A DNA stretch of 7,260 bases from Deltaproteobacteria bacterium (lineage in GTDB: Bacteria > Desulfobacterota > GWC2-55-46 > S146-70), in the NCBI GenBank assembly GCA_015492395.1, contig WGFD01000260.1, positions 1 through 7,260 of the forward strand, given 5' to 3'. This document shows positions 1 through 4,010 of this stretch, one piece after another. The notes under the pieces are model-generated. The model did no database searches and was not told the origin of the DNA. It was given only the letters and a program-made list of their open reading frames with translations. Both the position numbers and the translations under genes were made by a program. Each line of letters starts with the position of its first letter. Positions within the stretch are counted from its first letter, which is position 1.

Positions 1-136
1 CCTTCCGCGCGGCACAGGGATATGCCGCCATTTTCAATGGCTTACAGCCATTGAAAATGTGAGAAAAAGAAAAATCGCACTTTTTCTTTTTCGTCTCTGA
101 ATAATTCAGGGATGAATTATTCAGAGGTTCCTTAAG
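1..136 (+). repeat. Multi-hairpin intergenic repeat, copy 1 (left end cut by window edge)
   Basis: Positions 1-131 are identical to 2836-2966, and the match runs on to 136 with one mismatch (T132 versus A2967). Four complete perfect hairpins are visible: 9-14/23-28 (6 bp, loop CAGGGATA), 29-41/47-59 (13 bp, loop TTACA), 63-74/81-92 (12 bp, A5/T5-rich arms, loop TCGCAC) and 95-107/114-126 (13 bp, loop AGGGAT). Bases 1-6 are the end of the right arm of a fifth hairpin that is complete in copy 2. The copy lies downstream of the minus-strand 84-aa gene. It has no meaningful ORF. It is not a CRISPR array, because there are no regularly spaced short repeats with unique spacers. The family identity is unknown to me; a REP/BIME-like or MITE-like element or a structured RNA are the main options. 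Confidence 0.93.
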
Positions 137-2491: not shown

Positions 2492-2758
2492 GTGGCAAAT
2501 CACAAGTCTGCGGTGAAGAGACACAAACAGAGCATTAAGAGAAGAGACAGGAATATCGCCGTGAAGTCTGCCGTTAAGACGGCCGTAAAGAGGGTAGAGG
2601 GGGCCATAAGCAAAAATGATATTGATGACGCGAAGAGGCGTCTCCGCGAAACCAATATCCTCCTCGATAAGGCGGTGTCTAAAGGGGTCCTTCACAGGAA
2701 CAACGCATCAAGGAAGATATCCAGGCTCACTACTAAGGTGAATGTTGCTGGCAGTTAA
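2492..2758 (+). CDS. rpsT: 30S ribosomal protein S20
   Basis: A primary 16S rRNA-binding protein at the bottom of the 30S subunit, active in assembly. The 88-aa length is typical. The N-terminus (MANHKSAVKRHKQSIKRRDRN, read from GTG) is the classic S20 opening (ANxKSAxKRxxQ), followed by helical, Lys/Arg-rich sequence and the conserved late segment DKAVSKGVLHRNNASRKISRL (residues 58-78). It starts at GTG behind a strong Shine-Dalgarno. E. coli rpsT also uses a non-ATG start (TTG), which there takes part in autoregulation; similar control here is only an inference. The gene is divergent from murJ, convergent with holA, and followed by the hairpin repeat. Confidence 0.98.
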   Translation: MANHKSAVKRHKQSIKRRDRNIAVKSAVKTAVKRVEGAISKNDIDDAKRRLRETNILLDKAVSKGVLHRNNASRKISRLTTKVNVAGS

Positions 2759-2810: not shown

Positions 2811-2971
2811 CTAAGGAAGGTCTGATTTATTCAGACCTTCCGCGCGGCACAGGGATATGCCGCCATTTTCAATGGCTTACAGCCATTGAAAATGTGAGAA
2901 AAAGAAAAATCGCACTTTTTCTTTTTCGTCTCTGAATAATTCAGGGATGAATTATTCAGAGGTTCCATAAG
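2811..2971 (+). repeat. Multi-hairpin intergenic repeat, copy 2 (complete)
   Basis: Five perfect hairpins follow one another in 147 bases. H1 is 2815-2825/2831-2841 (11 bp, loop TTTAT); H2 2844-2849/2858-2863 (6 bp, loop CAGGGATA); H3 2864-2876/2882-2894 (13 bp, loop TTACA); H4 2898-2909/2916-2927 (12 bp, A5-G-A5 against T5-C-T5, loop TCGCAC); H5 2930-2942/2949-2961 (13 bp, loop AGGGAT). The joints are only 0-3 bases, so about 110 of 147 bases are paired. A short sixth stem (GGTTC 2961-2965 / GAACC 2971-2975) lies at the right end. The outer ends CTAAGGAA and TTCCATAAG (TTCCTTAAG in copy 1) form an imperfect terminal inverted repeat. No target-site duplication or ORF is evident. It lies between the convergent genes rpsT and holA. 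Confidence 0.95.
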
Positions 2972-3038: not shown

Positions 3039-4010
3039 TCATCGGCCTTGGCACAGGTCAAATATAAACCTCTCCAGGATGAGCCTCTTGCTCAAATTAC
3101 TGCTCTTGAGCTCCATGTCCGCCCTTCTCAAATTGCGGAATATCTCCGTCAGGTTGTCCTCTGTAAATCTCTTGCTATGCGCTATATAGTCACGAACCTG
3201 TGACGGGAATAGGCCAAGCGCCTGCGATATGTACCTACTATCCTTGCCGGAGCGTAACATTATCTTTGTCTTCCATAGTATCCTGAACTTTCTTGAGATG
3301 GCCCCGAGCACCATTAGGGGCGGTTCCGATGATAGCCTGTTAATGGTTCGTAGCGCGGCATCCAGATCCTTCATGCCGATGCTGCTTGTAAGATCAAAGA
3401 CCGTGTCTTCCCTGACATCTGCACCGACACGCTCTATATCGGCCACCTCTATCCTATCCCTTTTTCCCACATAAATGATAACCTTTTGCAACTCGCTGCT
3501 CATATATCTGAGATTATTGCCGGTTATGGAGATGAGCCTTGTAATGGCCTCGCCGGCGATGTCCTTACCTTCCTCTTTTACCTCTTTCCTTATCCAACCG
3601 GTGAGTCTTCCAATTGATAACCTGTTGAATATCCTCAGATATCCCCTCTTTTCGGCCTCCTTGAATAGCGTTGAGCCCTTGCGTAGCTTCCCTTGGCCGG
3701 CTATCAGGATGAGGCATGTGCTTGGAGAGGGATCGCCAAGGTAGTCGAGGAGAGCCCTCTGTCCTTTGGATTTAAGGGTGTCGATGTCATCTACTAGAAC
3801 CAGTCTCTTTTCGGAAAGGAGGGGCAGTGTCTGGGCGATTGAGAGGATGTCATGGATATCTGTGTCCTTCGCGCTGAAGCGGTGGTAGTTCATGTCTGTA
3901 GGACCATCCTGTAGTACGGCGGCCTTCAGCCTGTAAACCTCCTGCGCGATCAGGAAGTCCTCCTTTCCTGCGAAGAGATATACCGGTGCGACAGCTTTCC
4001 CTCCGACCAT
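3039..4010 (-). CDS. holA: DNA polymerase III subunit delta (clamp loader)
   Basis: The delta subunit opens the beta sliding clamp as part of the clamp loader that puts processivity rings on DNA. At 323 aa it is close to the family length of about 320-345. The opening PVYLFAGKEDFLIAQEV (residues 9-25) is characteristic, followed by an AAA+-like fold without a Walker A motif, as expected for delta: SEKRLVLVDDID (66-77), a ten-residue segment CLILIAGQGK (99-108), and a C-terminal helical domain with ADMELKSSNLSKRLILERFI (297-316). ATG4010 is the only reasonable start because the codon directly before it, in the same frame, is the lptE stop TAG. A GGAGG (4023-4019) lies eight bases upstream, inside lptE. 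It is the last gene of the leuS-lptE-holA operon and is probably translationally coupled to lptE. Confidence 0.95.
   Translation of the reverse strand: MVGGKAVAPVYLFAGKEDFLIAQEVYRLKAAVLQDGPTDMNYHRFSAKDTDIHDILSIAQTLPLLSEKRLVLVDDIDTLKSKGQRALLDYLGDPSPSTCLILIAGQGKLRKGSTLFKEAEKRGYLRIFNRLSIGRLTGWIRKEVKEEGKDIAGEAITRLISITGNNLRYMSSELQKVIIYVGKRDRIEVADIERVGADVREDTVFDLTSSIGMKDLDAALRTINRLSSEPPLMVLGAISRKFRILWKTKIMLRSGKDSRYISQALGLFPSQVRDYIAHSKRFTEDNLTEIFRNLRRADMELKSSNLSKRLILERFIFDLCQGR

Follow-up and report, generated by a model that had tools for sequence, protein, structure and literature searches.

The window, that is the whole stretch of DNA analysed here, is the entire 7,260-bp contig C260 of the draft genome G000, which comprises 2.09 Mb in 359 contigs. 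It carries an array of five hairpins between rpsT and the gene for DNA polymerase III delta (Table 1). According to the ORF list of the window no ORF of at least 60 aa overlaps this element, as the initial annotation had stated. Successive hairpins are separated by joints of 2, 0, 3 and 2 bases, within the 0-3 bases given by that annotation. The stem lengths it listed (11, 6, 13, 12 and 13 bp) hold for hairpins 1, 2 and 4, and those of hairpins 3 and 5 have to be raised to 14 bp. Hairpin 5 has an extra T-G pair outside the 14-bp stem. That five perfect hairpins standing back to back lie far beyond chance is confirmed by the folding energy. As RNA the element folds with -78.2 compared to an average of -34.1 for shuffled sequences (z -11.9), and as DNA the minus strand reaches -54.9 compared to -14.6 (z -14.2), with 0 of 200 shuffles as stable in either case. 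Perfect stems of at least 11 bp with loops of 3-8 bases are confined in the window to the element and the partial copy at the contig start, and none is found in 30 shuffled windows. A terminator or promoter reading was rejected, with one terminator-like hairpin (hairpin 2; 0.3 expected) and no sigma-70-like promoter near the element. Adjoining the partial copy, an 84-aa ORF lies on the minus strand (322-576); it has no Pfam match at E 0.001.

Table 1. Features of the five-hairpin array and its surroundings in the window.
Feature	Position	Strand	Basis or remark
Second copy, truncated by contig start, hairpin 1 mostly missing	1..131	+	
rpsT	2492..2758		PF01649
Left flanking 4-mer CTAA (target-site position)	2811..2814	+	differs from right 4-mer
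Full-length mobile unit (152 bp) with five hairpins	2815..2966	+	flanks of 27 young contig places, 10 of them two-ended copies; R1 and R2 matches end to end
Left terminal inverted repeat GGAAGGTCTGATTTATTC	2815..2832	+	16/18 bases equal to left end of IS5-family element L031
Hairpin 1	2815..2841	+	11 bp, loop 5; 5' arm is start of left terminal repeat
Hairpin 2	2844..2863	+	6 bp, 8-base loop CAGGGATA containing AGGGAT (ANGGAN) at 2851-2856; GGA kept in second lineage
Hairpin 3	2864..2894	+	14 bp, loop 3; 8/14 pairs changed on both sides (29-copy alignment)
Hairpin 4	2898..2927	+	12 bp, loop 6
Hairpin 5	2930..2961	+	14 bp, loop GGGA (4 bases) with closing pair A-T (AGGGAT, 2943-2948); 3' arm enters right terminal repeat
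Right terminal inverted repeat GGAACCTCTGAATAATTC	2949..2966	-	copy ends compared
Right flanking 4-mer ATAA (target-site position)	2967..2970	+	differs from CTAA
DNA polymerase III delta gene	3039..4010		PF06144

A BLAST search of G000 with positions 2811-2971 yields 78 matches, many of which are self-matches of the palindromes. It returns 30 loci, 27 with young and three with old copies; a further 25-base right end at a contig end (L040) was left out of the count. Both flanks are available for 10 of the 27 young contig places, the left flank only for 8 and the right flank only for 9. Because contigs break inside copies, these places correspond to 19-27 insertions. The two copies noted initially are therefore not the total, and the many dispersed intergenic copies that were named there as one sign of a structured element do exist. 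With few exceptions the copies begin with GGAAGG and end with GGTTCC. Exact 4-bp direct repeats flank six of the ten two-ended copies, and shuffling of the right flanks gives a mean of 2.40 (p 0.009). The six equal flank pairs are TTAA (twice), CTAA (twice), ATAA and TTAG, five of which (CTAA, TTAA, TTAG) conform to YTAR, the target duplication stated for IS5 (PMC10359306). With eight copies from a second genome of the class, G055, 9 of 18 copies have exact 4-bp repeats (shuffled mean 3.53, p 0.0007), a count in which L072 and L074 are scored unequal since their borders lie a few bases off. Direct repeats of 5 bp are absent among the two-ended copies. The flanks of the window copy are unequal, and four of the ten two-ended copies have no exact repeat. 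Copy number, inverted ends and 4-bp repeats together support the non-autonomous mobile element that the initial annotation had proposed.

The copies are intergenic, with 2 of 35 loci overlapping an ORF (77 aa and 85 aa). Some copies overlap a gene end by up to 30 bases, and in L003 the insertion is located at the extreme 3' end of a 149-aa ORF. Joining of the flanks across copies, which would restore empty sites, reveals no convincing interrupted gene. Copy orientation relative to neighbouring genes is unbiased (28/52 and 29/50); an apparent sense-strand bias in an early hand count was discarded after it disappeared in the first of these two counts, for which the ORF cut-off was tightened and further loci were added. 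Two loci of G000, L037 (contig C346, 978-1004) and L038 (contig C337, 971-997), are 27-bp miniatures which share the internal deletion joint GGAAGG/GATGAATT. They are found at different sites and are flanked by exact 4-bp repeats, TTAA and TTAG, respectively. They may have arisen by slippage that occurred more than once across the hairpins, or else a 27-bp unit may itself have moved.

The same genome contains an IS5-family element with like ends. This element, L031 on contig C140, is 1,222 bp long and carries a 341-aa transposase ORF that matches the IS5-family model NF033581 with 310 bits at a cut-off of 140, as well as PF01609 and PF05598. In addition to the agreement at the left end (Table 1), 16 of 20 bases are shared at the right end. 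L031 itself is flanked by TTAG and CTAA, which form no direct repeat. Derivation of the interior from the parent insertion sequence is not required of every MITE. Comparison of the array interior with L031 gives no similarity above chance beyond the ends, and below E 0.01 the left end alone aligns. A search of G055, a genome 81% complete, with the L031 transposase gives no match and had no positive control. Short end matches occur in six further genomes of the class (G013, G032, G039, G040, G042 and G043; L044-L056). Among 11 end-match loci examined, eight have both GGAAGGTCTGATTTATTC-type ends around unrelated interiors of elements of 138-262 bp, which mostly consist of one long palindrome. 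The array model has no match better than E 0.1 in the end-match loci with other interiors. The same ends thus go with various cargoes. GGAA... ends, a 4-bp YTAR-type duplication, the lack of an ORF, the intergenic position and a like-ended IS5-family element in the genome are all shared with IS5-group insertion sequences and their MITEs, and by its ends and duplications the element is MITE-like.

The initial annotation had also considered a REP- or BIME-like origin and suggested looking for a RAYT (Y1) transposase with similar hairpins at its flanks. The hairpins do look REP-like, and three Y1 genes of the RAYT type (PF01797) are present in G000 (L082-L084), but nothing resembling the array is found in the three loci around them. 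REPINs and BIMEs are likewise described as short palindromic repeated mobile DNA (PMC3116915), from which the array differs by the missing RAYT link and by its 4-bp duplications. These duplications and the inverted ends resemble those of a DDE-type insertion sequence, and mobilization by a Y1 transposase is highly improbable.

Older copies are carried by G055, whose contigs match JAJRYL01, Deltaproteobacteria bacterium isolate Dive96_bin3.294. G000 contributes 16 young and 2 old ones to an alignment of 29 copies, and G055 the other 11. In this alignment, 22 of 58 pairs are changed on both sides compared to 9.1 in shuffles (0 of 500), and 91.1% of the cells pair compared to 45-53% when the partner is slid. 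Compensatory changes in the stems had been named initially as the mark of a structured family. Together with the kept fold and the covariance-model matches given below, they bear this description out. The opposite expectation, stems that decay freely and without compensation, holds in one part only: old copies do decay, but compensation is seen. In the G055 locus L069 (contig C253), the array is split near hairpin 4 by foreign sequence that bears short palindromes of its own.

By sequence search, the window type is found in 2 of 63 genomes of the class at E 1e-6 and, among 395 genomes drawn from the phylum with two candidates scored per genome, in one, its own. A covariance model built from the 29-copy alignment, R1, detects 4 of the 63 class genomes at E 0.01, namely G000, G055 and, with weak matches, G036 and G062. 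The full G062 locus scores 77.9 bits with R1. BLAST with this locus uncovers a second lineage in the genus g11, with 38 matches in G062, 13 in G027, 3 in G031, 32 in G046, 16 in G019 and 28 in G011, partial matches included. An even 800-kb sample of G011 holds 14 full arrays, from which roughly 48 are expected in the genome. Five array-bearing g11 genomes had been missed by R1, and its absences therefore mean little; R1 and a second model, R2, give no match at E 0.1 in a 287-kb sample of 20 further genomes of the class. This second lineage, as well as the GGA loops discussed below, did not appear in the initial annotation.

The g11 elements also consist of five hairpins, and in both lineages the terminal repeats lie inside hairpins 1 and 5. 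Their ends can be placed in 27 of 30 loci, which gives 25 elements of 150-153 bp and two of 140 and 144 bp. The ends are of type CAGGGTGTTGAAAAA and CAGGATGTTGAAAAA with flanks that are mostly NTAG, and they differ from the window-type ends. Exact 4-bp repeats flank 15 of the 27 elements (shuffled 8.5, p 5e-5). When run unfiltered, R1 matches 28 of these 30 loci with E-values of 5e-6 or below, over the full length and on the strand of the BLAST match, and is weak on L131 (0.008) and L137 (0.05); with default filters, only 6 loci are found. The reverse comparison uses R2, which was built from 28 g11 copies alone. It recovers 7 of 13 loci from G000, G055 and G036 with E-values of at most 4e-8, among them the window copy (2.8e-17), is weak on L115, L024, L028 and L059, and misses both G036 loci. 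Among 19 control loci, a match better than E 0.1 is obtained in just one, and this locus holds a true array.

In a joint alignment of both lineages, which is model-fitted and includes one spurious reverse row, both partners vary in 48 of 57 pairs compared to 34.2 after shuffling. A comparison of the two lineage consensuses that leaves out the reverse row gives 26 of 56 pairs with both bases different, all 26 Watson-Crick in each lineage, and 25 identical pairs. Identity between the consensuses is 53/113 in the stems and 24/37 in the unpaired columns, a difference that is not significant alone (Fisher p 0.06). The array differs from IS5-group insertion sequences and their MITEs in that fold, length and loops are conserved across lineages with different ends. 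It also differs in its interior, which beyond the ends is unrelated to the insertion sequence, and in that PF01609 is not found at E 0.001 or better in any of the six g11 genomes, a search that is positive in 9 of 14 control genomes. A candidate for an autonomous g11 partner, a 1.43-kb end pair in G027 among the matches listed, of which none is from G011, was rejected as it encloses ordinary ORFs. Two further G027 loci, L156 and L158, are array derivatives that retain hairpins 1 and 5 and lack most of the intervening sequence; both flanks of L158 read TTAG. Loci L159-L164 from G027 and G062 represent an apparent second g11 MITE family with ends of type CAGGCTGCTGAAAAA and other interiors.

In an ordinary IS5-group MITE, template switching at replication could also create palindromes and keep them perfect without any selection for the fold. 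The ends are indeed IS5-like, and multi-base arm changes in hairpin 3 of G055 are exactly matched in the other arm. The hairpin-3 loop (window 2878-2880; L002-L016) is TAC in both window copies and inverted to GTA in most others, as is expected from recombination or template switching within the hairpin. This process leaves unexplained why a genus with different ends has arrays of like length, hairpin order, joints and GGA loops, and as a full account of the element we regard it as unlikely. The interior fold has persisted while its sequence and the ends changed, which suggests selection on the fold itself. We are confident that the element is mobile and that its fold is conserved.

The loops of hairpins 2 and 5 share the sequence GGA, which is invariant in these two loops in the g11 alignment. 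On the plus strand, at least two predicted terminal loops contain GGA in 16 of 29 copies of the first alignment (14 of the 16 young rows from the window's genome) and in 26 of 28 g11 copies; the other strand reaches this number in 0 of 29 and 2 of 28 copies. Such loops are the hallmark of sites for the regulator CsrA/RsmA, for which an ANGGAN loop, the SELEX consensus RUACARGGAUGU and the CsrB repeat CAGGA(U/A/C)G are given (PMC7652899). With the predicted closing pair counted, both window loops read AGGGAT and thereby match ANGGAN, an exact agreement in both loops that is found in the window type only. By our own comparison, hairpin 2 of the window reads GCACAGGGAUAU and agrees with the SELEX consensus at 10 of 12 positions. 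In g11, hairpin 2 has ANGGAN in 25 of 28 copies, and hairpin 5 has ANGGAN in 2 of 28 and CAGGA(A/C)G in 16 of 28. CsrA-site motifs are described as generally paired because CsrA is a dimer (PMC4333381). Both GGA loops are kept in only 2 of 11 G055 rows, and of the 14 arrays in the even G011 sample, old ones among them, 10 retain GGA in loop 2 and 8 in loop 5.

Stems of SELEX-derived CsrA hairpins are reported mostly not to exceed four contiguous pairs, and binding may be impaired by very stable stems (PMC7652899); the stem of hairpin 5 has 14 bp. No csrA was recognised in 1.48 Mb of partly overlapping, partial sequence that includes 29% of G011, where the one match, 30 residues at E 0.016 in L219, was judged by eye to be due to chance. 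At least one GGA loop on the minus strand, mostly in hairpin 3, is present in 10 of 28 g11 copies. These minus-strand loops and the g11 hairpin 5, which mostly does not carry ANGGAN, lower the standing of a CsrA decoy. A partner of the CsrA type is predicted from the loops with reservation.

If selection maintains the fold, it may act on RNA or on DNA. The strand-specific pair of GGA loops supports the RNA level, as does, weakly, the excess of columns with G-U over columns with C-A pairs, 26 compared to 12 in the young and g11 sets (p 0.03). With old copies included, this excess is lost (37 vs 38 and 20 vs 19). A MITE whose hairpins matter solely as DNA, either as cruciform or in single strands, where they aid transposition or bind a host DNA protein, would carry the GGA loops as a by-product. 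The equal G-U and C-A counts with old copies (37 and 38 columns) agree with such an element, and so do the location of the ends within the first and last hairpin of either lineage, the unbiased orientation towards genes and the palindromic nature of like-ended MITEs of the class. It does not account for a GGA pair that is kept in the same two hairpins and on the same strand in both lineages, nor for unpaired columns that are somewhat more conserved than stems (p 0.06), and the interiors with which other MITEs move are quite different, so that the ends do not depend on a five-hairpin plan. On balance we consider hairpins of purely DNA-level relevance a rather doubtful though serious alternative, and we lean towards selection on the RNA fold.

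Our preferred reading, held tentatively, is a MITE-like non-autonomous element with a conserved five-hairpin fold whose plus-strand transcript is a predicted decoy for a protein of the CsrA/RsmA type. A DDE transposase, probably of the IS5 type in the window's genome, would act in trans on the inverted ends, with NTAR sites as targets for the unit. Transcription of the plus strand through a copy would then yield the five folded hairpins, and the two GGA loops are predicted to hold one CsrA dimer. The effect could be that of a decoy in trans or that of a cis element in the mRNA of a neighbouring host gene. It is conceivable, as a more speculative extension, that such arrays form a class of transposable RNA decoys, in which the five-hairpin fold and the two predicted CsrA-binding loops are kept and stems and ends are exchanged between lineages. 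Under the same speculative reading, each genome would contain tens of scattered CsrA sponges, and their number would rise with transposition.

Bacterial MITEs are usually regarded as inert remnants of insertion sequences. Binding of CsrA to the GGA loops, if it occurs, would make the dose of a global regulator depend directly on transposition. This would open a route for a selfish element to tune or exploit host physiology, and some unexplained Rfam families, TD-2 and TwoAYGGAY, could be read as possibly mobile.

The array family is absent from Rfam above threshold: the whole window has no match at E 1 or better, and for the element alone the 35 matches listed are all far below gathering. It does not fit the REP/RAYT systems, and its structural constraint was not found described in the literature searched. 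In this literature, covered by titles and abstract openings and mostly open-access, neither a mobile CsrA-binding element nor a five-hairpin MITE is reported. QMITE1 and QMITE2 of Coxiella are MITEs with copies that are transcribed as structured small RNAs (PMC5896051), as is predicted for the array. They differ from it as long palindromes, with direct repeats of 7-9 bp for QMITE2, and the available text describes no conserved multi-hairpin plan or GGA loops for them (PMC5896051). The TwoAYGGAY RNA (RF01731), which Rfam places in clan CL00106 together with RsmV, is predicted to bind CsrA (PMC4333381) and by its name resembles the array in having paired AYGGAY hairpin loops. One g11 copy reaches only 18.1 bits with this model compared to a gathering threshold of 43 (E 2), and the available text does not mention mobility for this RNA. 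The TD-2 RNA (RF03162) differs in that three hairpins are matched instead of five, and another g11 copy scores 33.3 bits compared to a gathering threshold of 48.7 (E 0.0012 in a 201-base search). This copy aligns over 98 of 98 model positions, and the TD-2 model shares with the array GGA loops in two of its three hairpins and a similar outer GUUGAAAA...UUUUCAAC stem.
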